DNA of 37,317 bases from Lysobacter antibioticus HS124. Lineage in GTDB: Bacteria; Pseudomonadota; Gammaproteobacteria; Xanthomonadales; Xanthomonadaceae. The notes under the pieces are model-generated. The model was not told the origin of the DNA, did no database searches, and saw only the letters and a program-made list of their open reading frames with translations. This document shows positions 1,834-27,490 of this stretch, piece after piece (within the stretch, counting starts at the first letter, position 1; the number at the start of each line of letters is the position of its first letter). The DNA lies in assembly GCF_000336385.2 (NCBI RefSeq), contig NZ_HG424504.1:1-37317 (forward strand), in the 5' to 3' direction. The position numbers and the translations under genes are program-made.

Positions 1834-2247
<414 letters not shown>

Positions 2248-2280
2248 GCTCTACGCCGAAACCGACGCTTACCGTCGTGA

Positions 2281-2310: not shown

Positions 2311-2502
2311 TGCGGCGTGGCGACGGCCCGCAACGCCGCCGCCGCTTCCGCGCCACGACGCGCCGCATGTGCGCACCGGCGCAGCGTGCCGCGCGGCACA
2401 GGATCGATCGGTAGCCGTTCGCGGCGCCGCGATGTTCCGGGGGCGGGCGGTAGCCCGATCCGGTCGGGCGCTCCGCTCGCGCTCGATCGGAATGAGATCG
2501 GC

Positions 2503-2532
2503 TTGCATTACGCCGTGTGACCGGCCTAACGT
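2503..2532 (+). promoter_or_regulatory. Possible sigma-70 promoter for the third exbD
   Basis: TTGCAT (2503-2508) and TAACGT (2527-2532) are separated by 18 bp and lie 36 nt upstream of the chosen ATG. The preceding operon ends in a strong terminator, so a promoter is needed in this 257-nt gap. The match to consensus is only fair. I see no other feature in 2311-2502 apart from GC-rich sequence. Confidence 0.35.
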
Positions 2533-2567
2533 AAATGCGGGCAGCCCGCCCCAGGATGGAGGTGCAT

Positions 2568-2978
2568 ATGGCCGGTTCCGCGTTCTCCGCTTCCGCTTAC
2601 GCCGGCGATGCGCCGGTCGCCGAAATCAACGTCACCCCCCTGGTCGACGTCATGCTGGTGTTGCTGATCATCTTCATGGTCACCGCGCCGGCGCTGACCG
2701 GAAACATCGACCTCGGCCTGCCGGTGCCCGGAGGCACCAGCGTCGAACCGCCGCCCAAGGCCAGCCTGATGGTGCGTCAAGGCGGCGGTTTCGAGCTCGA
2801 CGGCCGCAGCTTGGCCGCGAACGAACTGCCGGCGGCGCTGACGTCGCTGGCGCGCAGTGCGCCGGACACCGTGCTCGAAATCGCGGCCAATGCCGACGCC
2901 GACTACCAGAGCTTCGCCCAGGCCCTGTCGGCTGCGCAGGACAGCGGGATCGAGAACATTTCCACGCCGACGCGCTGA
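2568..2978 (+). CDS. Third, stand-alone ExbD/TolR-family protein
   Basis: 136 aa from the ATG at 2568, chosen because GGAGG (2558-2562) sits 5 nt upstream; an upstream in-frame ATG at 2535 lacks this. Residues 17-40 give [20 protein letters not shown], with Asp27 equivalent to the ExbD proton-path aspartate, followed by a periplasmic ExbD/TolR domain. It is a third paralogue of the two ExbDs just upstream, but it sits behind a strong terminator and so is probably transcribed alone. It may pair with another ExbB/TolQ or swap into the same complex. No ExbB partner lies beside it. Confidence 0.9.
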   Translation: MAGSAFSASAYAGDAPVAEINVTPLVDVMLVLLIIFMVTAPALTGNIDLGLPVPGGTSVEPPPKASLMVRQGGGFELDGRSLAANELPAALTSLARSAPDTVLEIAANADADYQSFAQALSAAQDSGIENISTPTR

Positions 2979-2997
2979 GCCGCGCACCCCCGGTACG

Positions 2998-3023
2998 CGA
3001 CGGCCGCCATCGCGCGGCCGTCG
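2998..3023. terminator. GC hairpin after the third exbD
   Basis: CGACGGCCG (2998-3006) and CGGCCGTCG (3015-3023) form a 9-bp perfect stem with an 8-nt loop, 20 nt after the exbD3 stop. There is no T-run (only TCGTT follows), so it is a weak or factor-dependent terminator or an mRNA 3'-end stabiliser. Confidence 0.45.
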
Positions 3024-3050
3024 TCGTTCGCAGCGATTTCGCGGCCTCCC

Positions 3051-3214
3051 TTGTAGGAGCGCCGTGAGCGGCGACAACCGGAGCGGCCGACTACCACGCA
3101 AGCGACCGAAGTCGGGCTGGGCGATGCGGTTGGGGAAAGCAACGATAGGTCCGGGCTTCGGCTACGGCGCTTGCGTACACCGCGGCGGTTGGTCGCGGCT
3201 TGCGCCGTTCCTAC
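3051..3214. repeat. Paired interspersed hairpin repeat (TAGGAGCGGCG family), inverted pair
   Basis: The left unit TTGTAGGAGCGCCGTGAGCG... (3051-3080) and the right unit, read on minus, GGTAGGAACGGCGCAAGCCG... (3186-3214) are inverted copies of one REP-like sequence. Each carries a small stem around a GTGA or GCAA turn and ends in GCGAC-x-ACCG. They bracket about 105 nt without coding potential between exbD3 and the pdxJ 3' end. The same family occurs at 14151-14350. This placement between convergent gene ends is typical of REP/BIME-type elements. Confidence 0.75.
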
Positions 3215-3248
3215 CCAAGGCGGTTCGCGGCCGCTACAGCGGCCGCAA

Positions 3249-4004
3249 TCAGGCGGCTTCGGCGATCACCCGCAGATACCCGCGCACGGTCGCGTCGAGG
3301 CCTGCGTACAAGGCCTCGCCGATCAGAGCGTGGCCGATCGACACCTCGAGTACGTTCGGTACGCCGCGCAGGAAGGCGCCGAGGTTGGCCTGGCTGAGGT
3401 CGTGGCCGGCATTGACGCCCAGGCCGGCGGCCTGGGCGCGGCGCGCGGCGGCGGCGAAAGCGGCGACCGCCGATTCGGCGCGACCGTCGGCGTAGGCTTC
3501 GGCGTACGGACCGGTGTACAGCTCGACCCGGTCGGCGCCGAGCGCGGCGGCCAGTTCGATGCCGGCGCGGTCGGCATCGGCGAACACGCTGACCCGGCAG
3601 CCGAGCGCGCGCAGTTCGGCGATGCGCGGACGCAGGGGTTCGGCATCGCGGATGAAGTCGAAACCGTGGTCGGAGGTGAGCTGGTCGTCGCCGTCCGGCA
3701 CCAGGGTCGCCTGCGCCGGGCGAGTGCGCTCGCACAACGTCAGCAGGCCCGGATAGCCTTCGCGCGGCGGCGCGAAGGGATTGCCTTCGATGTTGAACTC
3801 CACGCCGTACGCGCGGGTCAGTTCGGCCAGCGCGTACACGTCGTCGGCGCGGATATGGCGGGCGTCGGGGCGCGGATGCACGGTGATGCCGTGGGCGCCG
3901 GCGTCCAGGCAGGCGCGCGCCGCGCGCACGACATCGGGCTCCGCGCCGCCGCGCGAGTTGCGCAGCACGGCGATCTTGTTGACGTTGACGCTGAGTACGG
4001 TCAT
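3249..4004 (-). CDS. pdxJ: Pyridoxine 5'-phosphate synthase PdxJ
   Basis: 251 aa from the ATG at 4004; an in-frame GTG two codons upstream (4010) is possible, but ATG with TAGG upstream fits better. PdxJ condenses 1-deoxyxylulose 5-phosphate with 3-amino-2-oxopropyl phosphate to pyridoxine 5'-phosphate, the last step of DXP-dependent vitamin B6 synthesis in the cytosol. Diagnostic stretches: [16 protein letters not shown] at the N-terminus, [60 protein letters not shown] and [13 protein letters not shown]. The length is normal. pdxJ is usually in the recO-era operon of enteric bacteria; here it stands convergent to the exbD cluster, as in xanthomonads. Confidence 0.96.
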
Positions 4005-8142: not shown

Positions 8143-8211
8143 CCGGTTCGCTGCGGCCGATCCGTCCGCCCATCGATCGCAGTGCGCCGCTCGCGTCGCA
8201 GTCCGCCGGCG

Positions 8212-9783
8212 TTACGGTGCGTCGGCGCAGGCCGCCCCGGCGTGCGAGGTCGCCGATTGCGGCGTCGCCTCGTGCGCCGAGGCCTCGCCGAGCAGCGCAT
8301 ACGCCCCCCACGCGATCGCCGCGGTGACCGCCGCCAGCAGGTACATCAGCCAGGCGAACGCGCGCTCGTAGCCGTGGCGCAGCGCGGCGGCATCCAGCCC
8401 CGGCAGCAGTTCCCGCGCGTGCGCCGCATCGCCGGTGGCCAGGCGTTGCGCGGCCTGGCCCAGCGCCGCGCCGGCGTCGGGCGCGAGCGCCCGTAGCTGC
8501 CACTGCAGCAGGCCGGCCAGGGCCGCGGCGACCACGGCGATGGCGATGCCCTCGCCCGAGACCCGGCTGGCGCCGAACACGCCCGCGGCCATGCCGGCGC
8601 GCTCCTTCGGTACCACGCTGATCGCCAGGCCGTCCATCAGGCCCCACGGCACCGCCGCGCCGGTGCCGATCAGCAGCAGCGGCGCGACCAGTGCCGCGGC
8701 CCCGGCTTGGCCGGCGATCGCGCCGAGCCAGACCAATCCGGCCGCGGCCAGCCACAGGCCGCCGCCGCACAGCACGCCGGCGGCGAGGCGATGGCTCAGC
8801 AGCGCCGCCGCGAACGGCACCAGCAGCATCGGCGCCGACAAGGCCATCATCAGCGCGCCGGCCTCGATCGCGCTGTAGCCGTGCAGGCCGATCAAGCGCA
8901 GCGGCAAGACGATGATCAGGACCAGATAGGCGAAGCCGGTGCCGATCGGCAGCAACTGCGCGCCGACGAAACGCGGCAGGCGAAACAGGCTGAGGTCGAG
9001 CATCGGCCGCGCCGCGCGGGTTTCCACCCGCACGAACAGCGCCAGCAGCGCGAGGGCGCCGATCAGGGCCGCGAGCACCCAGGGATCGGACCAGCCGCGC
9101 TCCGGCGCCAGCAGCAGGCCGGTGGTCAGCAGGCTCAGCATCGCGGTCGAACTGAAACAGCCCGGCCAGTCCAGCCCGCGCGCCTCGGGATCGCGCGACT
9201 CGCGCATGCGCGGCACGCCGAACGCGCTGGCCAGCACCGCGATGGCGAGGCTGGACAGGAACACCGCCCGCCAGCCCTGGCTTTGCACCAGCCAGCCGGC
9301 CAGGCTGGGGCCGAAGGCCAGGCCGATGCCGAACGCGGTGCCGAGCAGGCTGAAGGCGCGGATTCGCGCCGGGCCGTGGAATTCCTGCGACAGCGCCGCG
9401 TTGCCGCCGGCCAGCGCCAGTGCCGCGGCCACGCCCTGCAACAGGCGCAGCAGGTTCAGCGCGAGCAGGTTCGGCGCCAGCGCCAGCAGCAGCGACACCA
9501 GCGCATAGGCGAGGATGCCGGTGGCGAACGTGCGCTTGCGGCCGTAAGTGTCGGCCAGGGTGCCGGCGGCCATCAGGCAACTGCCGAAGGCAAGCATGAA
9601 GGCGTTGGTGATCCAGTTCAGCGCCACCGGGCTGCCGCCGAGTTCGGCGGCGATGGCGGGAATGGCGACCGGCGGGCCGGTGAAACTCAAGGGCAGGACC
9701 AGGCCGGCGAGGCTGACGGCGCCTAGGATCAGATAGCGGTCCAGGCGCCCGACCGGGCGGTCGGCGGGCAGGGAAACGGACAT
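8212..9783 (-). CDS. MFS transporter, DHA2-like (14-TM drug-efflux type)
   Basis: 523 aa from the ATG at 9783; upstream in-frame extension reads through the LysR gene and is not real. The N-terminal half shows the MFS pattern LNWITNAFMLAFGSCLMAAGTLADTYGRKRTF (motif A: G-x-LADTYGRKR) and LLRLLQGVAAALALAGGNAAL (motif B-like). A further RIRAFSLLGTAFGIGLAFGPSLAGWLVQ segment matches motif C of drug:H+ antiporters. About 14 hydrophobic helices are visible, which fits the EmrB/QacA (DHA2) group. It probably exports a toxic compound using the proton gradient; the substrate cannot be told. It is divergently transcribed from the LysR regulator, which most likely controls it. Confidence 0.88.
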   Translation of the reverse strand: MSVSLPADRPVGRLDRYLILGAVSLAGLVLPLSFTGPPVAIPAIAAELGGSPVALNWITNAFMLAFGSCLMAAGTLADTYGRKRTFATGILAYALVSLLLALAPNLLALNLLRLLQGVAAALALAGGNAALSQEFHGPARIRAFSLLGTAFGIGLAFGPSLAGWLVQSQGWRAVFLSSLAIAVLASAFGVPRMRESRDPEARGLDWPGCFSSTAMLSLLTTGLLLAPERGWSDPWVLAALIGALALLALFVRVETRAARPMLDLSLFRLPRFVGAQLLPIGTGFAYLVLIIVLPLRLIGLHGYSAIEAGALMMALSAPMLLVPFAAALLSHRLAAGVLCGGGLWLAAAGLVWLGAIAGQAGAAALVAPLLLIGTGAAVPWGLMDGLAISVVPKERAGMAAGVFGASRVSGEGIAIAVVAAALAGLLQWQLRALAPDAGAALGQAAQRLATGDAAHARELLPGLDAAALRHGYERAFAWLMYLLAAVTAAIAWGAYALLGEASAHEATPQSATSHAGAACADAP

Positions 9784-9900: not shown

Positions 9901-10803
9901 ATGGACAAACTCGGCAGCCTGTTGGCCTTCGTGCGCACCGCCCAGACCCGCAGCTTCGTCGGCGCCGGGCGCCTGCTCGGCCTGTCGTCCTCGGCGGTCG
10001 GCAAGAGCGTGGCCAAGCTCGAACAGCAGCTCGGCGTGCGCTTGCTCCAGCGCAACACCCGCAACGTGCGCCTGACCGAAGAGGGCCAGGCCTTCTACGA
10101 ACGCTGCCGGCCGCTGCTGGACGAGCTGGAAGAAGCCGAGGCGATGCTGACTCACGCCATGCAGGCGCCGCGCGGTCGGTTGCGCATCGGCCTGCCGACC
10201 GCGGGCTACCGGTTCCTGATGCCGGTGCTGTACGAATTCCGTCGCCTGCACCCGGAAGTATTGCTGGACCTGGACTTCAACGATCAACTGGTCGACGTGG
10301 TCGAGGGCGGCTTCGATGTGGTGATCCGCAGCGGCGACATGCCCGACTCGCGGCTGCGCGCGCGCCGGCTGGGGCCGTTCTGCTTCATGCTCTGCGCCGC
10401 GCCCGCTTACTTGCAGCGGCGCGGTGAACCGCGTCGGCCGGCCGACCTGGAGGCGCACGAGTGCATCCACTACCGCTTCGCCAACAGCGGCAAGGTCCAG
10501 GAATGGTCGCTGCGCCTGGAGCCGGGCGAGTCGCCGCCGCACCTGCCGTCGGCGCTGGTGTGCAACAACATCGAAGCGGCGGTGTCGGCGGCGGTGCACG
10601 GGCTGGGCATCGTCTACACCACCGATTTCATGGTCCGCGAACTGCTCGCCGACGGCCGCCTGTGCCGGGTGCTGCCGGGCTTCGAAGCGCAGCGCGGCCA
10701 GTTCTGGGCCTTGTGGCCGGAGCATCGGCTGATGTCGCCTAAGCTGCGGGTGTTCCTGGACTTCATCGGCGAGCGCCTGTTCCGCCATCCGCCGGTGGCT
10801 TGA
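9901..10803 (+). CDS. LysR-family transcriptional regulator
   Basis: 300 aa, typical of the family. Residues 1-60 are the winged HTH: LLAFVRTAQTRSFVGAGRLL, SSSAVGKSVAKLEQQLG and VRLLQRNTRNVRLTEEGQ. From about residue 90 the LysR substrate-binding domain follows (GRLRIGLPTAGYRFLMPVLYEF, VDVVEGGFDVVIRSGDMPDS, CNNIEAAVSAAVHGLGI). It belongs to the large CrgA/AaeR-like group that often sits divergent to efflux or dehydrogenase genes. Its divergent neighbour is an MFS efflux pump with a shared palindrome in between, so local control is likely. The effector is unknown. Confidence 0.93.
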   Translation: MDKLGSLLAFVRTAQTRSFVGAGRLLGLSSSAVGKSVAKLEQQLGVRLLQRNTRNVRLTEEGQAFYERCRPLLDELEEAEAMLTHAMQAPRGRLRIGLPTAGYRFLMPVLYEFRRLHPEVLLDLDFNDQLVDVVEGGFDVVIRSGDMPDSRLRARRLGPFCFMLCAAPAYLQRRGEPRRPADLEAHECIHYRFANSGKVQEWSLRLEPGESPPHLPSALVCNNIEAAVSAAVHGLGIVYTTDFMVRELLADGRLCRVLPGFEAQRGQFWALWPEHRLMSPKLRVFLDFIGERLFRHPPVA

Positions 10804-10936
10804 GCCGCGCGACTGGCGCGCGCCGCCGCGGCCGGACGACAATGCCGCAGGACGCGGGCCGGATCGTCGCCTGCGCAGGAAACGGCGGCTGCGATCGCGC
10901 GCCGCCATGTGATTCATCGCATCGAAAGGATCTCGC

Positions 10937-11776
10937 ATGCTCGGTCTGTATCCGCTCCGCCTGTTTTCCCTCGCCGTGCTGGGCCCGACGCTGGCCGGCG
11001 CGGCGGCTGCCGCCACCGCCACCGCACCGGGTTTCGACTGCCGGCATGCGCGCAGCGCGGTCGAACAGCGCATCTGCGCCAGCGACGAGTTATCGCGGCG
11101 CGATGCCGAGCTCAATGGCCTGTATCGGCAGATCCAGGCCGAAACCGCCGGCATCGACGGCGCCAGCGGCCGTCGCATCGACCCGCTCGCGGCCGGTCAA
11201 GCCGCCTGGCTCGCCCGCCGCGACGCCTGCGCCGACGAGGCTTGCCTGTTGCGCGCCTACGACCGGCGCATCGCCGAGCTGCGCCGCGACTGGGTGCAAG
11301 CGTTGGAGACACCGGCCGCATCGATGCCCGTCTATCGCTACGAGCGCCACGGCGAGTTCGAGGTGTTTATCGACGACTTCCGCCGCGCGGTCGCCGCCGA
11401 CGATCGCGAGGCGGTCGCGCGCATGAGCGCTCGTCCGTTCGCCGACTACGCCACCGGCCTGAGTTGCGTGAACGCCGAGGACGGCTGCTCGACGCAGGAA
11501 CTGCGCGCCACCCGCAGCAGCCTGACCCCGGACGAGTTTCGCGCCAAGTACGAACGGGTGTTGTCGCCGGCGGTACGCACGGCGCTGCGCGAGCGGCGCC
11601 TGCGCGCGTACGACCCGGCCGTCGACGAAGTTCGCGACGAGGACGGCGAGGTCGAAGTCGTCGGTCCGATCGCGCCGGGCGAGTACCTGCTCGAGGACGA
11701 CGATATCTTCGAGCAGCGGGTGTTCCGCAAGATCGACGGTGCGTACAAGCTCGCACGCGTTCCGTTCTATCCCTGA
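10937..11776 (+). CDS. Secreted protein with LprI-type N-terminal (DUF1311) domain
   Basis: 279 aa. Residues 1-23 (LYPLRLFSLAVLGPTLAGAAAA) form a signal peptide without a clear lipobox. Residues ~30-110 match the lysozyme-inhibitor LprI N-terminal domain: GFDCRHARSAVEQRICAS, RRDAELNGLYRQI and QAAWLARRDACADEACLLRAYDRRIAELR. Four cysteines are placed for two disulfides. The remaining ~165 residues (YERHGEFEVFIDDFRRAV... to VPFYP) are unassigned and may be a separate fold. In mycobacteria LprI binds lysozyme, but most proteobacterial members have no tested function. It converges on the M4 protease gene, which has its own terminator on the opposite strand. Confidence 0.82.
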   Translation: MLGLYPLRLFSLAVLGPTLAGAAAAATATAPGFDCRHARSAVEQRICASDELSRRDAELNGLYRQIQAETAGIDGASGRRIDPLAAGQAAWLARRDACADEACLLRAYDRRIAELRRDWVQALETPAASMPVYRYERHGEFEVFIDDFRRAVAADDREAVARMSARPFADYATGLSCVNAEDGCSTQELRATRSSLTPDEFRAKYERVLSPAVRTALRERRLRAYDPAVDEVRDEDGEVEVVGPIAPGEYLLEDDDIFEQRVFRKIDGAYKLARVPFYP

Positions 11777-11884
11777 GCCGGCGCCACGAATGCGACGACG
11801 ACGGTGCCTACCTGCCGTTGCGCGGCGCCGCATCGCGCTGAAGCCGCCGGCATCGCGGCGGCGACGACGGCGAGCGCAGTGCAG

Positions 11885-18622: not shown

Positions 18623-19339
18623 TCAGCGACCGGCGAACAAGCGCTCCGCGCGCTGGAACAAGATCCAACTGGTGGCGATGTACTTGTCGCCGCCCTTGGG
18701 CCGGTTGCCGCGGTGGGTGTGGGTGAAGGCCGCCGGCGCGATCAGCAGATCGCCGGCGCGCGGGGCGATCTTGCGTTGCTGGTAGAGGAATTCGGTTTCG
18801 CCTTCCTCGAAGCCGTCGTTGAGATAGATCGTCCACAGCACGTGCCGATGCAGCGTCTCCGCGCCCTGATCGCGCGGATACAGCTCGCAATGCCAGTACG
18901 GATAACCGCCGCGGTCGGCGGTGTAGCGTTGCAGATTGATCGCGCCCGGGCGGAACACGGTTTGCGCGATCGGCGCCAGCGCGTTGTCGTCCATCTCCGC
19001 CATGCGCTCGGGCGTGAGCCGGTGACGCTTGCCGTCGGCCGACGGCGCTTCCAGCATCAGCGGCGCGATCATCGTGTGCGGATAGCGGCGCAGGTACTGC
19101 AGCAGGCCGCGGAACACCGCCAGGTTGAGCGCGATCTCGATGTCCTTCCAACCCTCGCGATTGGTGATGGTCAGGTCGCGGCTGTCCTTGAGGTCGGGCA
19201 TCACGCCGCCGCCGACCCGGCCGGGTTCGCTGTCGCGGCTGGCGTCGAAGCGGCGCACGAGGTCGGCGCATTGCTCGCGGCTCAGCGCTTCGGGATAGAC
19301 CTCGATGAAGTCGGCCGGGGCATCGATCGTCGCGGACAT
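18623..19339 (-). CDS. 2OG-Fe(II) oxygenase (prolyl-4-hydroxylase-like)
   Basis: 238 aa from the ATG at 19339; in-frame codons up to 19468 lack a ribosome-binding site and read as low-quality sequence. The C-terminal half holds the double-stranded beta-helix: INLQRYTADRGGYPYWHCELYPR, with His-x-Glu as the probable first two iron ligands; then HRHVLWTIYLNDGFEEGETEFLYQQ. PRAGDLLIAPAAFTHTHRGNRP supplies the distal His, and KGGDKYIATSWILF contains the 2-oxoglutarate-anchoring basic residue. The family hydroxylates proteins or small molecules using O2 and 2-oxoglutarate; the substrate is unknown. It is divergent from the amyloid-type operon, but nothing shows a functional link. Confidence 0.82.
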   Translation of the reverse strand: MSATIDAPADFIEVYPEALSREQCADLVRRFDASRDSEPGRVGGGVMPDLKDSRDLTITNREGWKDIEIALNLAVFRGLLQYLRRYPHTMIAPLMLEAPSADGKRHRLTPERMAEMDDNALAPIAQTVFRPGAINLQRYTADRGGYPYWHCELYPRDQGAETLHRHVLWTIYLNDGFEEGETEFLYQQRKIAPRAGDLLIAPAAFTHTHRGNRPKGGDKYIATSWILFQRAERLFAGR

Positions 19340-19453
19340 GGGCAAGCGGTTCGGGGCGGGAGCGCCATCCTCGCACGGGCGCAAGGTTGCAAAGAAGCAA
19401 CGCCTGCGGTCGCCGCCCGACGGGGCCGCATCGACTGGGCTGCGAGCCTGATT

Positions 19454-19486: not shown

Positions 19487-19614
19487 TGTGGCTCATTAAC
19501 TCGGGCCATGCGGTTCCCGCCCCGGTATCGCCGACGCAACGTTTTCGCTTCCTTAACCTGCGCAAGGTCCGCCAGAACCTGGAAATTTCTTTGGTTTTCA
19601 ACTGATTGCGAGGT

Positions 19615-19629
19615 CGGCACGACTTTCGC
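19615..19629 (+). promoter_or_regulatory. Sigma-54 (-24/-12) promoter of the amyloid-type operon
   Basis: CGGCAC-GACTT-TCGC has the invariant GG-N10-GC spacing and differs from the TGGCAC-N5-TTGC consensus at two positions. It is 65 nt upstream of the first ATG, which would give a start site near 19641 and a ~50-nt leader. GG-N10-GC occurs by chance in GC-rich DNA. The match extends beyond the core, however, and a sigma-54 activator gene closes the locus, which raises confidence. Confidence 0.6.
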
Positions 19630-19693
19630 GACAACCCTGTCACCGCCGGTGCGCCGTGCGGTCGCTGCGACGCCGTCGCCTTGGGGAATCGCC

Positions 19694-20230
19694 ATGCATG
19701 TCCGCCGCCTGCTCGAACCGAGTCCGTCGCGTCGTCGCCTCCGTCTGGCCCTGGCCTGCGCCGCGTGGGTGCTGGCGGCCGGGACCGTCCGGGCGCAGGC
19801 GCCGGCCGACGAGCATCGCGACACCACCGTGGTGGTCGCGCGCACCGTCCATCCGCGCATCGCCTATCGCGCCCTGCCGGCCCAGGACAATCCGATCCAC
19901 ACCGAAGCGACCACGTTTCCCGGCCAGGTTTTCCACGGCACGCTCGACCGCTCGCTTTCGCCCTTGGTCGACGATGCCGAGCTCGGCCAGCACGGCTCGA
20001 CCGGGCTCAGCCCGATGGCCGCCACCCGGCAACTGAGCGACCTGCTGGTGCCTGCCGACGCGATCGGCGGCCCGGCCGGCCAGCGCAGCATGCTCGGCGC
20101 CTCCTCCGCCCCCCCGATGGGCCCGACCGCCAGCGTCGGCGGCGCGGTCACCAGCGCCACCGCCGGCCTCGGCGACCTGATCACCGGCAGCGTCATGCAG
20201 GCGCTGTCGCCGCAGGGGAACGGGCGATGA
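19694..20230 (+). CDS. Exported protein in the fapA position, first gene of amyloid-type operon
   Basis: 178 aa from the ATG at 19694 (GGGGA upstream); earlier in-frame starts precede the probable promoter and are rejected. Residues 1-~33 are a signal peptide with a long basic n-region (MHVRRLLEPSPSRRRLRLAL) and cleavage near VRAQA. The mature part (~145 aa) is polar and low in predicted structure: HRDTTVVVARTVHPRIAYRAL, TTFPGQVFHGTLDRSLSPLVDDAELGQHG, then a Gly/Ser/Pro-rich tail. It has no amyloid repeats and no cysteine in the mature part. In Pseudomonas the first fap gene encodes FapA, a disordered periplasmic chaperone of similar size. Position and character fit, but I see no sequence signature that proves homology. 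Its stop overlaps the next start (ATGA). Confidence 0.68.
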   Translation: MHVRRLLEPSPSRRRLRLALACAAWVLAAGTVRAQAPADEHRDTTVVVARTVHPRIAYRALPAQDNPIHTEATTFPGQVFHGTLDRSLSPLVDDAELGQHGSTGLSPMAATRQLSDLLVPADAIGGPAGQRSMLGASSAPPMGPTASVGGAVTSATAGLGDLITGSVMQALSPQGNGR

Positions 20231-20865
20231 GCGCGCCGCGCACCCGCGCCGAGCGCATCGCGCCGCTGTGGCTGGCGGTGTGCCTGCTGGCGACCGCGGT
20301 CGCCACCGACACCCGCGCCACCGAGCCCGCCCCGGCACGCGATCAAGCGCGCATCGAGGCCGGCGCCGCGCAGCGCCTGCAAGGCCGCGCCGCGGTCAAT
20401 CAGGCCGCCGGCAGCGGTCAGATGCAGGCCAATCTGGCGACGATCGCCCACGCTTCGGACGGCCTGGCGCTGGCCGACGCGCAGCTCTCCCAGCACGGCG
20501 TCGCCGGCGCCGCATCGGTGCGCGACGCGGTGGCGCACATCGCGGCCGGTGCGTTCGCCGATGCCCACGGCCTGTTGTCGGTGAACCAGAGCGCCGGCGC
20601 CGGCAATGCCCAGGCCAACCTGTTCGCGGTCAGCCGCGGCGGGATGGTGTCCGGGCTGGACGATGCGGTGCTGGCCGATGTCGCCGGCGCCGCGTCCGCG
20701 TCCGCCGATGCGGCCGCTGCGTCTTCCTCGCCGCTGCGCGAAGCCTCGATCGCCGAAGGCGCCTTCCACGGCGGCCAGGGCGTGCTGCAACTCAATCAGA
20801 CCGCGGGGGCCGACAACGCGTCGGCCAACGCCATCGTGCTCCGACTGCCCGGGGGCCTTCCTTAG
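20227..20865 (+). CDS. Secreted protein with three NQxAG(x)xN repeats, minor amyloid-subunit candidate
   Basis: 212 aa, start coupled to the previous stop through ATGA (20227-20230). The signal peptide spans residues 1-~36. Three imperfect repeats follow: GRAAVNQAAGSGQMQANLAT, GLLSVNQSAGAGNAQANLFA and GVLQLNQTAGADNASANAIV, spaced ~70 residues apart. They give a pattern G-x4-NQ-x-AG-x2-N/Q-x2-AN. The spacers are Ala-rich. The Gln/Asn-rich AG-turn repeats resemble those of FapB/FapC functional amyloids and of the two following genes, but there is no C-terminal CxxC. It may be a nucleator (FapB-like) or a co-polymer. The identification rests on repeat pattern and synteny. Confidence 0.7.
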   Translation: MSAPRTRAERIAPLWLAVCLLATAVATDTRATEPAPARDQARIEAGAAQRLQGRAAVNQAAGSGQMQANLATIAHASDGLALADAQLSQHGVAGAASVRDAVAHIAAGAFADAHGLLSVNQSAGAGNAQANLFAVSRGGMVSGLDDAVLADVAGAASASADAAAASSSPLREASIAEGAFHGGQGVLQLNQTAGADNASANAIVLRLPGGLP

Positions 20866-20916
20866 AACAAAGCGGCAGAGACCAAGGCAATACCCACCAT
20901 CACCAGGAGAGAGGCC

Positions 20917-21684
20917 ATGAAAGTCCATTTCACCCTGCTTGCCCTCGCACTCGGCGTCGCTATCGCCGCTCCCGCCCATGCCGAAGGCGACGATGCCGAC
21001 ATCTACAGCAACACCAGCATCAGCAACCGCATCGGCGTCTGGGGCGGCGCCAAGGTGCGCGGCAAGATCTACATCAAGTCCGAATCGGCCGCGACCGTCG
21101 ATCAGGACCAGAAGACTCTCGGCAACTCCTCCTGGGGCGACGGCGATCACGACGCCCATCTCGGCGACAGCGCGCTGTCCGACGCGCAGGGCAACATCGG
21201 CGCCAACGTCGCTGCCGGCGTCGGCAACGCCCAGGCCAACGACACCGCCCTGTCCGCGGTCGACGGCGAAAAGGTGTTCGCTTCGGCGATGACCTTCAAC
21301 AGCCAGGCCTCGGTCGGCAACTTCGCCTATTCGGGCGTGGACGACACTTACTACAGCGCCACCCTCGACGGCGACGCGCTGTCCAACGCCAAGGGCAACA
21401 TCGGCGTGAACGTGGCCGCGGGCGTCGGCAATGCGCAGACCAACGCGATGGCCGCCTCGGTCAACAGCTCCGGCCGCATCGCCAAGGCCGCGTCCGACAG
21501 CGAGCAGACCAGCTTCCTCAACGAGCTCGCCGCCGACTGCGATCTGGACACCTTCGCCACCCTGGCCGGCAGCGCGCTGTCGGGCGCGCAGGGCAACATC
21601 GGCGCCAACGTCGCCGCCGGCGTCGGCAACCTGCAGCACAACGGCTTGTCGATCGCCACTGCGTCCTGCGGCAGCTGCGATTGA
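20917..21684 (+). CDS. Fap-type amyloid subunit, copy 1
   Basis: 255 aa, AGGAGAGAGG before the ATG. The signal peptide is residues 1-22 (KVHFTLLALALGVAIAAPAHA). The mature N-terminus EGDDADIYSNTSISNRIGVW is followed by three repeats on the pattern GNIGxNVAAGVGNxQxN: ALSDAQGNIGANVAAGVGNA near residue 90, ALSNAKGNIGVNVAAGVGNA near 155, and ALSGAQGNIGANVAAGVGNL near 225. Less conserved linkers rich in Asp, Ser and Tyr separate them. It ends in SCGSCD, a CxxC like that at the C-terminus of FapB/FapC. In Pseudomonas such proteins polymerise outside the cell into biofilm amyloid. It is a close paralogue of the next gene; which one is FapB-like and which FapC-like cannot be told by eye. Confidence 0.8.
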   Translation: MKVHFTLLALALGVAIAAPAHAEGDDADIYSNTSISNRIGVWGGAKVRGKIYIKSESAATVDQDQKTLGNSSWGDGDHDAHLGDSALSDAQGNIGANVAAGVGNAQANDTALSAVDGEKVFASAMTFNSQASVGNFAYSGVDDTYYSATLDGDALSNAKGNIGVNVAAGVGNAQTNAMAASVNSSGRIAKAASDSEQTSFLNELAADCDLDTFATLAGSALSGAQGNIGANVAAGVGNLQHNGLSIATASCGSCD

Positions 21685-21691
21685 TCCGCGC

Positions 21692-21721
21692 ACGGCCGCG
21701 GCCGCATCGGGCCGCGGCCGT
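21692..21721 (+). promoter_or_regulatory. Perfect 12-bp intercistronic hairpin between the two amyloid subunit genes
   Basis: ACGGCCGCGGCC (21692-21703), loop GCATCG, GGCCGCGGCCGT (21710-21721). It begins 7 nt after the stop of copy 1 and ends 31 nt before copy 2. There is no U-run, so it is not a full terminator. It more likely stabilises the upstream mRNA end or causes partial termination, and so could set the subunit ratio. Confidence 0.7.
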
Positions 21722-21752
21722 TCCGCTCCAGGCACCGCTACGGAGAATCGTT

Positions 21753-22571
21753 ATGAAACTTCACCACACCCTGCTCGCCATCGCGCTGGTTTCCAGCCTG
21801 GCGTTGCCGGTCTGGGCCGAAGGCGACGACGCCGACATCCATAGCTCGACCCGCGTCAACAACGACATCGACGTGCACGGCCGGGTCAAGGTACGCGGCA
21901 AGATCAAGATCGCCTCGCAATCCTCGGCGACGGTCGATCAGGACCAGACCACCGAGCACAACCTCTCGCTCGGCGACGGCGATCACGATGCCCATCTCGG
22001 CGACGACGCGTTGTCCGACGCGCAAGGCAACATCGGCGTCAACGTGGCCGCCGGCGTAGGCAACGCGCAGGCCAACGACACCGCCCTGTCCGCGGTCGAC
22101 GGCGAGAAGGTCTTCGCTTCGGCGATGGTGTTCAGCAGCCAGAGCGCGAGCGACAACTACGCCACCACCAACACCGACCACACGTACTACAGCGCGACCC
22201 TGGACGGCAACGCCTTGTCCGCCGCCAAGGGCAACATCGGTGTGAACGTCGCCGCCGGCGTCGGCAACGCCCAGAGCAATGCGATGGCCGCCTCGGTCAA
22301 CAGCTCGGGCCGCCTGGCCCTGGCCGCGGCCGACAGCGAACAGAGCGCGATGTTCAATCTGCTCGACAGCGAAGGCCGGCGCATCAGCCTGGACCTGTAC
22401 GCCACCCTGGGCGGCAACGCCCTGTCGGGCGCACAGGGCAACATCGGCGTCAACGTCGCCGCCGGCGTCGGCAATCTGCAGCACAACGGGCTGTCGATCG
22501 CCACCGCGTCCTGCGGCACCTGCGCGGCGCCCCCGCCGCCGCCGACCTGTGGCAGCAACTGCGGCGATTGA
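21753..22571 (+). CDS. Fap-type amyloid subunit, copy 2
   Basis: 272 aa, GGAGA before the ATG. The signal peptide (residues 1-21) is followed by EGDDADIHSSTRVNNDIDVHG and three repeats with the same core as copy 1, all reading GNIGVNVAAGVGN. They are flanked by identical blocks (GDGDHDAHLGD, NDTALSAVDGEKVFASAM, AASVNSSGR). The C-terminus differs: after SCGTC it adds a proline run and a second Cys pair (CGSNCGD). It arose with copy 1 by tandem duplication, and the linkers between repeats have diverged much more than the repeats, which points to selection on the repeat core. The likely role is a polymerising extracellular subunit (FapB/FapC-like). Confidence 0.8.
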   Translation: MKLHHTLLAIALVSSLALPVWAEGDDADIHSSTRVNNDIDVHGRVKVRGKIKIASQSSATVDQDQTTEHNLSLGDGDHDAHLGDDALSDAQGNIGVNVAAGVGNAQANDTALSAVDGEKVFASAMVFSSQSASDNYATTNTDHTYYSATLDGNALSAAKGNIGVNVAAGVGNAQSNAMAASVNSSGRLALAAADSEQSAMFNLLDSEGRRISLDLYATLGGNALSGAQGNIGVNVAAGVGNLQHNGLSIATASCGTCAAPPPPPTCGSNCGD

Positions 22572-22660
22572 GCCGCACTCTCGGTCCGCGACGGTCGCCC
22601 CCGGCCGCCGCGGATCGAGTTCCCTCCCGCGCATCGCGTCCAGCGTCGTTATCCAAGGCC

Positions 22661-23389
22661 ATGACCCCGCCGATCCGTACCCTCGCCGTCTGCCTCTGCG
22701 CCCTGCTCGCCGCGGGCGCGGCGCATGCGCAGTCGCCCGGCGAGCGCAGCGTGCCGGTCGACGTCACCCGTCTGGTCGGCAACGGCGCGGTGCCCGGCAT
22801 CAAGCCGATGCGCACGATGCGCGATCTGCGCTACCGCGACCTGATGCAGCAGCGCTACGACTTCAGTTGCGGCTCGGCGGCGTTGGCCAGCCTGCTCCAC
22901 TACGGCTACGGCCTGGAGGTGAGCGAGGCCGAGCTGATCAAGAAGATGATGGTCGGGGTCGATCCGAAGGAAGTGGTGCGCAACGGGTTCTCGATGCTGG
23001 ACATGAAGCGTTACGTCTCCGGCATCGGCATGCGCGCGCACGGGTTCCGCATCGAGCCCGACGCGCTGTACCGCTTGCAGATGCCGGTGATCGCCCTGCT
23101 CGACCTGAAGGGCTATCGCCATTTCGTGGTGGTCAAGGGCGCGGCCGGCGGGCGAGTGTTCGTCGCCGATCCGGCGCTCGGCCACCGGGTCATGCCGGAA
23201 GCCGATTTCGTCCGCGGCTGGAACGGCATCGTGCTCGCGGTGGTCGGCGACCGGCCGATGCGCGCCGATTCCTATCTGGTCAACCACCGCAGCTCGCCGG
23301 CGCTGGAGCGCCGGGTGGACGCGCTCGACCGCGCCACCGCGCCGCCGCGGGTGGTCGAGTTCGGCCTGGTCGTTACCGATTTGTTCTGA
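22661..23389 (+). CDS. fapD: C39-type cysteine peptidase, FapD-like
   Basis: 242 aa from the ATG at 22661. The signal peptide is residues 1-23 (RTLAVCLCALLAAGAAHA). A single papain-like C39 domain follows: Gln64 and Cys70 in QQRYDFSCGSAALASLLHYGYG, His154 in LLDLKGYRHFVVVKG, and Asp170 in VADPALGHR. The Cys/His/Asp set is complete, so it should be an active peptidase. It lacks the ABC-transporter parts of bacteriocin exporters. FapD of Pseudomonas is an exported C39-like protease needed for amyloid secretion, and the gene sits at the matching place, after the subunits and before fapE-fapF. The ~65-residue C-terminal extension (MRADSYLVNHRSSPALERRV...) is unassigned. Confidence 0.82.
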   Translation: MTPPIRTLAVCLCALLAAGAAHAQSPGERSVPVDVTRLVGNGAVPGIKPMRTMRDLRYRDLMQQRYDFSCGSAALASLLHYGYGLEVSEAELIKKMMVGVDPKEVVRNGFSMLDMKRYVSGIGMRAHGFRIEPDALYRLQMPVIALLDLKGYRHFVVVKGAAGGRVFVADPALGHRVMPEADFVRGWNGIVLAVVGDRPMRADSYLVNHRSSPALERRVDALDRATAPPRVVEFGLVVTDLF

Positions 23390-23422
23390 CACGTGCGACG
23401 CGTACCGCTTGCGAGGTGCCCG

Positions 23423-24163
23423 ATGAACTGTCCATCCCCCTGTGCCATGTTCGCGGCCCTCGTGGCAGCGGCGGCCGCGGTCCAACCCGCGGCCGCCCTG
23501 CCCCCTCTGAAAGTCGATCTGGTCGATGAGGCGACCCTGGCGACGATCAGCGGACGTTACTTCGGTGCGCAGATGCTGGTCGGCCTGCGGGTCGATTTGG
23601 TCTCCAGCCTGCACACGCCGCAGCAAGGCCTGGCCAGCGCCCGCGGCTCGATGCTGGTGCAGCGCGAGGGCGGCGGCTTTTCGGTGCAGACCGATGCGCG
23701 CAGCCAGGCCGAAGCCGGCTCCGGCCTGCCCGAGGCGACGCCGGCGACCGCCAGCGGCGCCGAGCAGGTATCGGTGCAGGGCATCGGCCAGATCGCCCAG
23801 ATCGCCGGCGACCGCAACCGTCTGTCCAACCTGACCCGGATCGGCTTCGTCGACAGCGTCGACGCCAGCGGCTTCAACGGTCAGACCCAGGCCGCCTCCA
23901 GCGCCGGCCCGATGACCGCGCAAGTCACCTTCCTCGACGGCGGCGTGCAGCTCGGCGTCGCCGGTCCCGGCGCGACCCTGCAACAGCGTCTGGACCCGGC
24001 CGCCGGCGGCGGCATCGTCCAGTTCGGCCGCATCGCCGGCAACGATCTGACCGGCAGCAACAGCCTGCAGTTGCAGTTCGTCAGCGCTCCGATCACGCCG
24101 CAACTGAGCCAGCAACTGGGTCTGCAACAAGCCTTGGAAAGCCTGCGCGCGCTGCCTCGCTGA
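23423..24163 (+). CDS. fapE: FapE-like secreted protein
   Basis: 246 aa from the ATG at 23423 (GAGGT upstream). The signal peptide is about residues 1-27, ending AAAVQPAAA. The mature protein is polar and begins with LKVDLVDEATLATISGRYFG. Residues ~125-150 (VQGIGQIAQIAGDRNRLSN) echo the Q-x-AG-x2-N pattern of the amyloid repeats in a single degenerate copy, and IVQFGRIAGNDL near 205 is a second echo. There are no cysteines in the mature region. Pseudomonas FapE is a small exported fibril-associated protein encoded between fapD and fapF. This gene has that position and weak repeat similarity, so the name is given with reserve. Confidence 0.6.
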   Translation: MNCPSPCAMFAALVAAAAAVQPAAALPPLKVDLVDEATLATISGRYFGAQMLVGLRVDLVSSLHTPQQGLASARGSMLVQREGGGFSVQTDARSQAEAGSGLPEATPATASGAEQVSVQGIGQIAQIAGDRNRLSNLTRIGFVDSVDASGFNGQTQAASSAGPMTAQVTFLDGGVQLGVAGPGATLQQRLDPAAGGGIVQFGRIAGNDLTGSNSLQLQFVSAPITPQLSQQLGLQQALESLRALPR

Positions 24164-24198
24164 GCGCTCCCTCTCCTCTTGCCACGGACGCCGAGACC

Positions 24199-25536
24199 AT
24201 GCGCCCAGCCCTCGCTCCCTTGTCGGTCGCGCTGATGCTCGCGATCGCGCTCCCGGCCGTCGCCGCCGAAACCGACGACGGCCCGACCCTGTCCCTGCAC
24301 CAGCGCATGCTCGAAATGAGCCGCGAGCTGGCCGCGCAACGCGCCGAGATCGAACGCCTGCGCCACCAGGTCGACGAGATGGAACTGAGCCAGCGCGGGC
24401 GCGGCCTCGGCGGCGACGCCTCGATGCAGGACAATGCGGCCAAGGTCGCGCGCACGGTCGCCGAAGAGGCGCAGCGCAAGGCCTCGGCCACCGCCACCGA
24501 GGAGGAGGCGCGGGTCGCGCAGAGCGCGCAGGACGGCACGGTGCAGATCGGCCAGACCCAGCGCGACGAGGACGCCCAGCGGCGCGAGCAGGAAAAGGCG
24601 CTGGTGGTGCGCGAGCACGCGCCCTTGTTCCAGCGCAAGTTCACCTTCGACGCCGGCTTCAGCTACAGCTACTACGACCGCCGCCAACTCGCGCTCAGCG
24701 GTTTCCTGGCCCTGGACGCGATCTTCCTGGGCAGCATCAACCTCGACCAGACCAAAGCCACCGTCGGCACGCTGGAACTCACCGGCCGCTACGGCCTGAC
24801 CGACCGGCTCAGCGTCGAAGCCAGCGTGCCCTACGTCTACCGCGATTCGCGCTTCGTCAGCGGCGGCGCCGGCGGCGCGTCCAGCGTGGTCAGCGAAGTC
24901 AGCATGCGCTCGCAGGGGCTCGGCGACGCCAGCGCCGCGGTGTACTACCAGTGGGTCAAGGAATCGCCGCGCTGGCCCGACATCGTCACCAGCCTGCGCG
25001 TGCGCGCGCCGACCGGGCGCGATCCGTTCGGGCTCAAGTTGATCCAGCCCGACGACAACAACAACAACCTCAACATCCCCGAAGAGCTGCCGACCGGCTC
25101 GGGCGTGTGGAGCGCGACCTTCAACGTATCGGCCCTGCGCACCTACGATCCGGTGATCCTGTTCGGCAACATCGGCTACACCTACAACAGACCGACCGAC
25201 TTCGACGATATCTCGCCGGTGCTGGAACAGGTGTCGCCGGCGGAAGTGGCGCTGGGCAATACCATCCAGCTCAGCGGCGGCCTGGCGATCGCGCTCAACG
25301 ACCGTTCGGCGATCAGCTTCAGCGTCGCCACCGCCCAGACCGGCGCCACCCACACCACCGCGCCCGGCGGGCCCAAGCGGCGCGTGCCGGGCAGTTCCAG
25401 CAACAGCACCACGCTCAACATCGGCGCCAGCTATGTGCTGCCGTCGGGCTGGACCCTCAACGGCCAGCTCGCCGCCGGACTGACCCCGGACGCGCCGAAC
25501 TTCGTGTTTTCGCTGCGCGGTTCCAAGTCGTTCTGA
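24199..25536 (+). CDS. fapF: FapF-like outer-membrane amyloid exporter
   Basis: 445 aa. The signal peptide is residues 1-23. Residues ~30-70 form a coiled coil (LSLHQRMLEMSRELAAQRAEIERLRHQVDEMELS). A charged helical linker follows (KVARTVAEEAQRKASATATEEEARVAQ...). From about residue 145, amphipathic beta-strands typical of a barrel begin: KFTFDAGFSYSYYDRRQLALSGFL, TVGTLELTGRYGLTDRLSVEASVPYVYRD and VSALRTYDPVILFGNIGYTYN. It ends on Phe (NFVFSLRGSKSF), the usual BAM recognition end. FapF is a trimeric 12-strand barrel with a periplasmic N-terminal coiled coil that exports Fap subunits. Both architecture and last-gene position match. A terminator follows 150 nt downstream. Confidence 0.85.
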   Translation: MRPALAPLSVALMLAIALPAVAAETDDGPTLSLHQRMLEMSRELAAQRAEIERLRHQVDEMELSQRGRGLGGDASMQDNAAKVARTVAEEAQRKASATATEEEARVAQSAQDGTVQIGQTQRDEDAQRREQEKALVVREHAPLFQRKFTFDAGFSYSYYDRRQLALSGFLALDAIFLGSINLDQTKATVGTLELTGRYGLTDRLSVEASVPYVYRDSRFVSGGAGGASSVVSEVSMRSQGLGDASAAVYYQWVKESPRWPDIVTSLRVRAPTGRDPFGLKLIQPDDNNNNLNIPEELPTGSGVWSATFNVSALRTYDPVILFGNIGYTYNRPTDFDDISPVLEQVSPAEVALGNTIQLSGGLAIALNDRSAISFSVATAQTGATHTTAPGGPKRRVPGSSSNSTTLNIGASYVLPSGWTLNGQLAAGLTPDAPNFVFSLRGSKSF

Positions 25537-25689
25537 TCCGCAGCGAAAGGGGTCGATCGCCGCGACCGAACCGCCGGAACCGGATCGCCGCAAAGGGCAA
25601 AGACAGGGGAGAACAGGGGCCGCGTCGCCGGGGCGACGCAATCGACAGATCGGGTTTCGCGCTGCAGCGCCGTTCCGGCGCGGGCGCCG

Positions 25690-25721
25690 GGGCGAAAGTG
25701 TGAGGCTTTCGCCCTCTTTTT
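25690..25721 (+). terminator. Rho-independent terminator of the amyloid-type operon
   Basis: GGGCGAAAG (25690-25698), loop TGTGAGG, CTTTCGCCC (25706-25714), then TCTTTTT. A 9-bp perfect stem facing plus, 18 nt before the end of the converging 75-aa gene. It bounds the seven-gene unit. The 153 nt between fapF and this hairpin hold nothing else I can support. Confidence 0.9.
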
Positions 25722-25738: not shown

Positions 25739-25966
25739 TCAGGCGGCGCGGTCCGGGCCTTCGTCTTCGGCAGCGTCCTGCTCGAAGCGGGACTGGATGG
25801 CGCGTACCCGCGCCCGGGTCGACTCCAGTTCGCCGGCGGCCGCGCGCATCGCCGCGATCGGGTCGTCGATGCCGAAGCGCCGATGCAGTACTTTGCGTTC
25901 GCGCTCGTTGAGCCCGGCGAACAATTCCATCAGCCACTCGTTGAGTTCTTCGTCGTGCTCGCTCAT
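25739..25966 (-). CDS. Stand-alone sigma-70 region 4-like protein
   Basis: 75 aa. Residues ~18-32 read GLNERERKVLHRRFGID, which aligns with the start of sigma-70 region 4 (L-x-ERER-x-VL-x-RRFG) of RpoS/RpoD. Residues ~45-62 (AAGELESTRARVRAIQSRF) align with the region 4.2 helix-turn-helix, T-R-x-R-V-R-x-I-Q being the recognition-helix pattern. Regions 1-3 are missing, so it cannot act as a complete sigma factor. It ends in an acidic tail. It lies 69 nt downstream of the VpsR-like activator on the same strand and may be co-transcribed. A role in transcription (binding -35 DNA or core flap) is inferred. No good Shine-Dalgarno is visible. Confidence 0.75.
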   Translation of the reverse strand: MSEHDEELNEWLMELFAGLNERERKVLHRRFGIDDPIAAMRAAAGELESTRARVRAIQSRFEQDAAEDEGPDRAA

Positions 25967-26035: not shown

Positions 26036-27490
26036 TCAGGCGGGTTGCGCGTCCTGCTCGGCGTCGTCCTCGCCGCTGCGCATGCCCAGCTTCAGCATCA
26101 GCCGGTACAGCGTCACTCGCGATACGCCCAACTCGCGCGCCGATTCGCCCAGGCGCTGGCGATTGCGCTTGAGCGCGCGCTCGATCGCCTCGCGGGTAGC
26201 GACGTCGCGCGCTTCCTCCAAGGTCATCGGCCGTTCCGCGGCCGCGTCGCCGATGCGCAGGTCGGCGGCGGTGATGTAGCGTCCCTCGGCCATGACCACG
26301 GCCTGGCGCACGCGGTTGATCAGCTCGCGCACGTTGCCGGGCCAGGCGTGGCGCTGCATGGCCTGGCGCGCGCAGGGCGAGAACCCCTTGAAGCCGCGCC
26401 GGCCTTCCTGCGAATAGCGGCGCAGGGCGTAGTCGGCGAGCAGGTCGATGTCGCCACCGCGCTCGCGCAGCGGCGGCATCTGCATGCGCAGCACGCACAG
26501 GCGGTGATAGAGATCGGCCCGGAAGCGGCCGGCCCCGACCGCGGCGTCCAGATCGTGGTGGGTCGCCGACACGATGCGCACGTCGACCGGGATCGGGCCC
26601 TGGCCGCCGACGCGCTCGATCGTGCCCTGTTCGAGGAAGCGCAGCAGCGAGGTCTGGCTGTCCAGCGGCAGGTCGCCGATTTCGTCGAGGAACAAGGTGC
26701 CGCCGTTGGCCAGCTCGATCCGGCCGAGCTTGCGCTGCTGCGCGCCGGTGAAGGCGCCGCGCTCGTAGCCGAACAGCTCGGATTCGACCAGGTTGTGCGG
26801 AATCGCACCGCAGTTGATCGCCACGAACGGTGCGCGGCTGCGCGATGAATGTCGGTGCAGGGCCATCGCCGCCAGCTCTTTGCCGGTGCCGGTCTCGCCG
26901 GCGATGAACACCGGCGCGTCGCTGCTGGCGGCCTTGCCGAGCATGCGGCACAACGTGCGCACGCCTTCGCATTCGCCGATCATGCCGTCGACGTGGTGGT
27001 GTTCGGCGCCGCGATGCTGGCCGCAGGACAACGCCGCCATGCCGTGGCCGTGGCCGATCACCGTGTGCAGCACCGCCTCGGGACAGGGCAGGGTGACGTA
27101 GTCGTAGCAATAGTCGCGGATCAGCCGCCGCACCAGCGCGTCGCCGAGTTGTTCGGCGTGGATGCCGGCGATCCAGCCCGCGTTGGCCGTGGTCAGGGCC
27201 GGACCGAGTTCGCTGAGATCGCGGGCGGTGAAGCCTTCGCGCAAGTCCACCAGCACCGCATGCGGCGTGTGCGGGCTCGCGTGCAGCTGGCGCAGCGCGC
27301 TGCGCGCGTCGGCGGCGCGGCGCAGGTTCCAGCCCAGCGCCTTGAGCGCGGTCAGCGCATGCATGCGCCCGGCGCCGCCGGGACTGAGATAGAGCAGTTC
27401 GCGCAGGCCGTCCGGCGCCGCCGCGAGCGGCGGCGGCAAGATCGTGGCCGCGTGGCGACCCCCCAGGTCGCGCTGTGCGTGATTCGACAT
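26036..27490 (-). CDS. VpsR-like sigma-54-dependent transcriptional activator
   Basis: 484 aa from the ATG at 27490 (GGGGAA upstream). Residues ~25-150 are a receiver-like N-terminal domain (LLYLSPGGAGRMHALTALKALGW, AVLVDLREG, DYCYDYVTLPCP) resembling VpsR-type regulators rather than classical receivers. The central AAA+ domain has Walker A GETGTGKE (198-205), the sigma-54 contact loop GAFTGA (245-250), Walker B TLFLDEIGDLPL and the R-finger region. A Fis-type HTH ends the protein (RQRLGESARELGVSRVTLYRLM). It is therefore a true sigma-54 activator. VpsR of Vibrio cholerae controls biofilm genes and binds c-di-GMP; whether this one does is inference. It converges on the amyloid-type operon, which has a sigma-54 promoter. 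Confidence 0.92.
   Translation of the reverse strand: MSNHAQRDLGGRHAATILPPPLAAAPDGLRELLYLSPGGAGRMHALTALKALGWNLRRAADARSALRQLHASPHTPHAVLVDLREGFTARDLSELGPALTTANAGWIAGIHAEQLGDALVRRLIRDYCYDYVTLPCPEAVLHTVIGHGHGMAALSCGQHRGAEHHHVDGMIGECEGVRTLCRMLGKAASSDAPVFIAGETGTGKELAAMALHRHSSRSRAPFVAINCGAIPHNLVESELFGYERGAFTGAQQRKLGRIELANGGTLFLDEIGDLPLDSQTSLLRFLEQGTIERVGGQGPIPVDVRIVSATHHDLDAAVGAGRFRADLYHRLCVLRMQMPPLRERGGDIDLLADYALRRYSQEGRRGFKGFSPCARQAMQRHAWPGNVRELINRVRQAVVMAEGRYITAADLRIGDAAAERPMTLEEARDVATREAIERALKRNRQRLGESARELGVSRVTLYRLMLKLGMRSGEDDAEQDAQPA

Follow-up and report, generated by a model that had tools for sequence, protein, structure and literature searches.

Does the run of seven leader-bearing genes in Lysobacter antibioticus HS124 encode a functional-amyloid system, and if so, why does it hold two copies of the fibre subunit? 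The window analysed here is the whole stretch of 37,317 nucleotides from contig NZ_HG424504.1 (positions 1 to 37,317), and the genes in question, fapABC1C2DEF, occupy 19694-25536 on its forward (+) strand. A first-pass annotation of this DNA had recognised seven consecutive genes in an order like that of fapABCDEF, and that order is indeed present. On sequence comparison, the operon holds as a Fap functional-amyloid system, which is an already known kind of system; what is new is its fapC array, in which the last subunit is tailed. With high confidence, we propose that fapA-B-C1-C2-D-E-F is a functional-amyloid operon read from one RpoN promoter, with the control, secretion, tail and hairpin roles developed below.

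The Fap assignment, suggested in the first pass from family traits, was borne out by profile search. NCBIfam models matched FapF, the predicted outer-membrane amyloid secretion channel (24199-25536, 445 amino acids (aa); NF058560, 1.9e-101); FapD, a predicted periplasmic C39 protease (22661-23389, 242 aa; NF058616, 1e-59; PF03412, 5e-22); the amyloid subunits FapC2 (21753-22571, 272 aa; NF058558, 1.9e-31) and FapC1 (20917-21684, 255 aa; NF058558, 1e-29); FapB, the putative minor or nucleating subunit (20227-20865, 212 aa; NF058557, 3.2e-29); and FapE (23423-24163, 246 aa; NF058559, 1.3e-9). No unrelated adhesin family appeared. The FapE match spans nearly the full length of the protein (residues 10-244), and FapB, the repeats of which are degenerate, is recognised by profile. 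In FapD, the Cys/His/Asp set noticed earlier consists of Cys70, His154 and Asp170, which align with the C39 residues of 6mpz. The seven genes are closely spaced, and the start of fapB overlaps the stop of fapA (ATGA). FapA (19694-20230, 178 aa), a putative periplasmic chaperone, is tentatively identified as such because phmmer from the window protein recovers the FapA of three Burkholderiaceae loci (L008, L009 and L011), which match the FapA model NF058617 at 7.9e-9, 9.6e-8 and 7.1e-10, and because of the position of its gene.

Structure comparisons point the same way. FapF matches the sequence of the crystallised FapF (5o65) at 5e-78, and its AlphaFold model (predicted local distance difference test (pLDDT) score of 73.9) has helices at 33-66 and 117-144 followed by strands over 148-444. 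This predicted fold matches FapF crystal chains with template modelling (TM) scores of 0.87-0.93 by target length, compared with 0.68 for the next fold, and thereby agrees with the coiled-coil and β-barrel architecture proposed in the first pass; fold and sequence together support, for the single chain, a β-barrel channel with a coiled coil and a plug. Two PTG motifs lie at 271 and 298. When a FapC profile that includes FapC1 was searched against the PDB with E values up to 1, only two sequences were found, the solved FapC fibrils 9nqd and 9u4u (4.7e-26 and 5.5e-26, positions 57-250). A pattern search located three repeats of N-x3-N-x-AAG-x2-N-x-Q-x-N in each of FapC1 and FapC2, plus a C-terminal CxxC, as had been seen before, and the FapC2 model shows three strand blocks and a tail without regular structure. 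All seven proteins begin with a hydrophobic, signal-peptide-like segment (10-residue Kyte–Doolittle maximum of 2.4-3.0), as the first-pass annotation had stated; by a simple leader test, FapE lacks a K or R ahead of this segment and FapC2 lacks an AxA.

Several observations weigh against so direct an assignment. All seven proteins score below the curated NCBIfam equivalog cut-offs, probably owing to models set on closer relatives. Window FapA is weak against NF058617 (E of 0.11), and among its other relatives that model gives 0.031 for L003 and no match for L004, L005 or L006. Confidence in the AlphaFold model of FapC2 is low (pLDDT of 54.9). In the open-access literature, the matches listed include one incidental mention but no study of Fap in a Lysobacter, and no results on its expression, fibres or binding there. 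A different reading, in which the gene set is a putative pilus system with FilB and FilC, draws on matches of FapD to NF050078 (FilB, 1e-31) and of FapF to NF050079 (FilC, 4.3e-12). However, the Fap models are far stronger for both proteins, the FapB, FapC and FapE models match too, and FapF and FapC match solved Fap proteins; with FilB and FilC not the best matches for FapD and FapF, we rejected a Fil-pilus identity, which we regard as extremely improbable. Pfam alone would miss the Fap system, because only Peptidase_C39 and the generic barrel family Phenol_MetA_deg pass its cut-offs; a ToxA match of FapC2 (8.6e-4) fell under the Pfam cut-off and was taken as chance.

The Fap operon of the window resembles the fapABCDEF operon of Pseudomonas in gene order, in its six families, in its signal peptides, in the fold of the FapF channel and in a FapC with three repeats. 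The likeness extends to the C-terminal CxxC, which many Pseudomonas FapC proteins also have, and to a hairpin after fapC. By contrast, the window has two FapC genes, a tail on the last FapC and families that score below the NCBI cut-offs. Among 22 Pseudomonas loci, 18 carry one FapC and 4 carry none by pattern, and a second FapC was found in none. In the passages drawn on here, Dueholm 2013 reports Fap in Rhodanobacter, Stenotrophomonas and others, with the order Xanthomonadales covered, and describes a single fapABCDEF operon with minor variations (PMC3792158); the strings 'Lysobacter' and 'duplicat' are absent from its main text. In the titles and passages of the open-access literature covered here (including PMC6920965, PMC7509637 and PMC11787515), no second or duplicated FapC is described.

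To place the two fapC genes in context, we surveyed 32 loci whose FapF resembles that of the window: the window itself, a set of 20 and a further 11. Of these, 31 were scored, L067 being cut off before fapC. Tandem fapC genes, in two to four copies, occur in 24 of the 31 loci, and the remaining 7 have a single fapC. All 14 Lysobacter loci have two, as do all four loci of the group that includes Luteimonas gilva; other groups have one to four. Within the genus of the window, fapC was found in 14 of the 20 genomes examined, always as two neighbouring copies. The extra subunit gene that had been singled out as a variant is therefore confirmed, yet it is shared by every fapC-bearing genome of the genus that was examined and forms part of a wider array trait. 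FapC1 and FapC2 are 74% identical and differ at their ends: FapC1 terminates in one CxxC (CGSCD), whereas in FapC2 the CxxC is followed by a stretch of polyproline and then by a second pair of cysteines (CGTCAAPPPPPTCGSNCGD). This arrangement recurs. In 22 of the 24 arrays the last fapC closes with a CxxC followed by a run of prolines and two further cysteines; none of the 29 earlier copies and none of the 7 single copies has the proline and second-cysteine tail.

Is the second gene then merely a matter of dosage, with interchangeable subunits and a tail that is a neutral 3′-end extension of the array? The 74% identity of the two proteins and the apparently homogenised bodies in some lineages are in keeping with such a duplicate, as is the lack of the tail in two of the 24 arrays (L059, with three copies, and L069, with two), which also counts against a dedicated tailed subunit. 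Set against this, 22 of 24 arrays, from several genera, keep the tail on their last copy and none of the 29 earlier copies has it, despite turnover of the bodies, and Lysobacter C1 and C2 remain distinct with similar constraint over ten loci. The median ratio of non-synonymous to synonymous substitution rates (dN/dS) is 0.31 for C1 and 0.28 for C2 (45 pairs, 10 Lysobacter loci), close to 0.27 for FapF (36 pairs, 9 loci); fapC1 and fapC2 are both under purifying selection, and to a similar degree. We put the chances of a simple dosage duplicate at somewhat below even.

A tree of FapC bodies, with leader and tail removed, was built from 47 of 65 rows after exclusion of 18 long-branch or near-duplicate rows. 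In this tree the last copies do not fall together, and a single old clade of all last fapC copies was ruled out (approximately unbiased test, p-AU 3.5e-5; 6-7 changes needed); within Lysobacter alone, C2 as a single clade is compatible with the tree (p 0.53, not rejected). The pattern fits either conversion of the bodies with retention of the tail or repeated gain of a similar tail. Independent gains would account directly for the rejected clade and for the genus group g32, in which the tail of L073 is clearly unlike the other three. But the tails share a common layout (CxxC, A/T/V residues, prolines and two more cysteines), and three of the four g32 tails (L006/L070, L071 and L072) are alike even though the body of L006_C2 is nearest to its own C1. 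We judge body conversion with a kept tail to be simpler, because the tails share their layout, and consider several independent origins rather unlikely. In a separate observation, the second and third of four fapC genes in L061 (2110-3783) share identical 66-bp spacers and are therefore taken to be a very recent duplication.

What might the tail do? The C-terminal CxxC of Pseudomonas FapC lies outside the fibre core and has been suggested, in the passages of PMC6173800 consulted here, to act in polymerisation and inter-fibre stabilisation. By analogy, a second cysteine pair on a flexible FapC2 tail could strengthen that role, and the tail, which stands outside the repeat core, most likely serves disulfide cross-linking or anchoring of fibres. 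The idea that the tail is tied to the neighbouring 2-oxoglutarate (2OG)-dependent oxygenase gene, as a prolyl hydroxylase might be, was dropped: the tailed arrays L070-L073 gave no tblastn match with the oxygenase, and L060, L065 and L069 carry the oxygenase without a tail.

The window also holds a 12-bp GC hairpin without a T run directly 3′ of fapC1 (21692-21721, + strand), an element that the first-pass annotation had not listed. We scored hairpins as uninterrupted stems of at least 9 pairs, with G-U allowed, located in the 45 nucleotides that follow the stop codon (which may include part of the next gene), in 22 of the 24 arrays (L047 and L050 left out). Such a stem was present behind 25 of the 27 upstream fapC copies, 14 of the 22 last copies and 4 of the 7 single copies, and in Pseudomonas behind 15 of 18 fapC genes; for fapB, fapD and fapE (22 genes each), the same criterion gave 0 of 66. 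The stems vary in sequence between lineages, and those displayed have no T run behind them. Because they differ and lack a T run, we read them as probably favouring the subunit gene, either by protecting the message or by terminating part of the transcription; a hairpin after fapC is likely to shield the message upstream of it, so that more subunit is made than downstream machinery.

The operon had been described as bounded by a σ54 promoter and an intrinsic terminator, and these two parts fared differently. The −24/−12 element CGGCACGACTTTCGCG (19615-19630, + strand) has the form GG-N10-GC in a conserved TGGCACG context. Taken alone, it is not significant, as the σ54 pattern occurs 6 times in the window compared with 6.4 times in shuffles, and significance on its own was rejected. 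The box is instead supported by conservation: among Lysobacteraceae and Burkholderiaceae loci (the latter represented by L008), 28 of 28 have [TC]GGCACG-N6-GC ahead of fapA. This count does not include L074 or the loci truncated close to the end of a contig or stretch (L061, L064, L066 and L067). A gene for RpoN is present in the genome. The terminator-like hairpin GGGGCGAAAG...CTTTCGCCCT-CTTTTT does lie at 25689-25715 (+ strand), though a terminator scan of the window found 1 such element when 0.6 were expected, which is not above chance.

Upstream of the promoter lie two dyads, likewise beyond the earlier annotation. The distal copy, GTTGC-N6-GCAAC (19386-19401), is 229 bp upstream of the σ54 box and is a putative site for a BrfA-type activator; the proximal copy, GTATC-N6-GCAAC (19525-19540), is 90 bp upstream and is a candidate BrfA enhancer. 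We scanned the upstream regions of 13 Lysobacter loci for every dyad with 5-base arms and spacers of 0-12: GTTGC-N6-GCAAC occurred without mismatch in all 13, two shifted registers of this motif reached 7, and every other word stayed below 5. With up to two mismatches, GTT[GT]C-N6-G[AC]AAC stands at −90/−91 from the σ54 box in 27 of 27 loci (L047, from the same species, left out), against a mean of 0.21 loci per offset, and 21 of the 27 have a second copy, with at most one mismatch, in the range −195 to −245. Because the motif was shaped on Lysobacteraceae data, the Pseudomonas loci offer the cleanest test. There, out of 5 x 1024 dyads, the motif takes ranks 1-3 in three registers (present in 14-15 of the 22 loci with at most one mismatch), and it sits at −79 to −81 in 16 of 22 loci (at most two mismatches; mean of 0.14 per offset). 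Relative to these 22 loci, which do not include strain PF07, the dyad of the window group is thus more distant from the promoter by one helical turn.

On this view, the BrfA-like protein encoded behind fapF would bind the dyads, and some findings speak against this. The proximal dyad of the window has a degenerate left arm (GTATC, one mismatch); 6 of the 22 Pseudomonas loci have no dyad at −79 to −81; and a stricter scan of 12 loci, which placed a dyad at −91 or −90 in L011 and L008 and at −149 to −180 in L013, L014, L017, L018 and L020, found none in L009, L012, L015, L016 and L019. Nor is the exact dyad enriched genome-wide (16 occurrences compared with 20 for a reversed control), which leaves it unsupported as the mark of a large regulon. 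The open-access passages on BrfA covered here, a set outside which the primary BrfA paper falls, give no BrfA site.

A regulator other than BrfA might instead bind the dyads, such as one that acts on the divergent 2OG-Fe(II) oxygenase gene (18623-19339, − strand). This gene faces away from fapA and has counterparts in 21 of the 28 promoter-set loci. The distal dyad, which in the window lies about 46 bp from the oxygenase gene start, is present with 0-1 mismatch in 20 of 21 oxygenase-bearing loci compared with 2 of 7 without the gene, and may serve the oxygenase gene as well. Yet the −90/−91 dyad is kept where no oxygenase was found alongside (L070-L073, L075, L076 and L008), its distance is the usual one for an enhancer of a σ54 box, and the motif recurs in brfA-bearing Pseudomonas loci, all of which makes a different regulator improbable and favours recognition by the BrfA-like protein.

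The BrfA-like gene itself (26036-27490, − strand), which the first-pass annotation had also not included, encodes a VpsR domain (PF20161, 2.8e-20), a σ54 AAA+ domain with GAFTGA (PF00158, 1.5e-66) and a Fis-type helix-turn-helix (HTH_8, 1.9e-4, just under the Pfam cut-off). In a first locus set, 25 of 27 rows have a BrfA-like gene in reverse orientation behind fapF (the exceptions being L009 and L011), as do 11 of 11 in a second, with three loci in both sets under two names. Using the window protein, tblastn found a reverse gene behind fapF in 18 of the 22 Pseudomonas loci, at 44-51% identity; counting against a general association, no brfA was found within about 2.5 kb behind fapF in L114, L115 and L117, and the sequence of L014 ends behind fapF. 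This arrangement resembles that of Pseudomonas fluorescens PF07, in which, according to passages of PMC9207406, brfA is reversed downstream of fapF, strains deleted for rpoN or for brfA express fap at a lower level and the fapA promoter is of the −24/−12 type, as mapped by 5′ rapid amplification of cDNA ends. The likeness thus covers the reverse gene downstream of fapF, a Fis-family σ54 activator and a −24/−12 promoter (PMC9207406). PF07 BrfA is further reported, in passages of PMC13101488, to sense and bind cyclic di-GMP (c-di-GMP).

Unlike PF07, the window has a gene for a free-standing 75-aa protein that consists of a σ70 region 4 (25739-25966, − strand) between fapF and the brfA-like gene. 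The protein matches an RpoS model at 5e-8 and Sigma70_r4 at 7.7e-5, just under the Pfam cut-off, and among 60 genomes a close copy (>80% identity) was found only in its own genome and in G252; one also occurs in the same-species genome G205. Across 16 loci measured (for example, L048, L049, L071 and L072), the gap between fapF and brfA ranges from 90 to 3766 bp. In L011 (Trinickia), two BrfA-like genes flank the fap operon (2038-3414 and 10307-11827), the downstream one not reversed and the second before fapA. A Pfam scan of ten neighbouring open reading frames matched two, and several of the chosen frames are probably shadows.

Putting these elements together, we propose the following course of events, in which c-di-GMP control and the secretion steps follow work in Pseudomonas. 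High c-di-GMP would activate the neighbouring BrfA/VpsR-type activator, which would bind both dyads (90 and 229 bp ahead of the −24/−12 box) and open the promoter. The Fap products would reach the periplasm via Sec, where FapA would hold the subunits unfolded and the FapD protease would license export; a FapF trimer would then pass FapB, FapC and FapE outward, and outside the cell FapB would seed FapC fibres. The cell would make two FapC subunits that share one three-repeat core, the tail of FapC2 would cross-link fibres through disulfides or anchor them, and the hairpin after fapC would guard the upstream message, giving more subunit than downstream machinery.

More tentatively, as a joint claim that we rate short of an even chance, these loci may specify composite Lysobacteraceae Fap fibres. 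Up to four co-expressed FapC proteins would have cores kept alike by gene conversion, and the last gene alone would keep the polyproline and second-cysteine tail as a dedicated cross-linking (or anchoring) subunit. In the same model, fapC and its 3′ hairpin would duplicate as a unit, and GTT[GT]C-N6-G[AC]AAC at a fixed helical phase to the σ54 promoter would be the general BrfA box of fap operons.

The machinery is spread unevenly over the genomes searched. In 297 genomes of the family, the FapC profile matches 81 and window FapF matches 121, many at about 30% identity. Some family genomes, for example G015, G173 and G217, have a FapF-like barrel at about 30% identity without a FapC match, and in L076 (genome G166) fapF is split into two open frames (8177-9465). 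Among 321 genomes of the class, Pseudomonas FapF gave 16 matches at no more than 45% identity; because of this ceiling, the search is taken not to have reached Pseudomonas.

These findings extend a well-studied system of amyloid secretion, together with its regulator and a probable enhancer, to a genus of soil bacteria that are lytic. The arrays amount to a natural experiment on heteropolymeric functional amyloids, with paralogous subunits that share one core and a tail on the last gene only. The conserved dyad predicts where a c-di-GMP-responsive activator would bind, in P. fluorescens as well, and the hairpin offers a simple possible explanation for how one operon could yield far more fibre subunit than channel. 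In Pseudomonas, Fap fibres serve biofilms, and Lysobacter carries a version of the same machinery.

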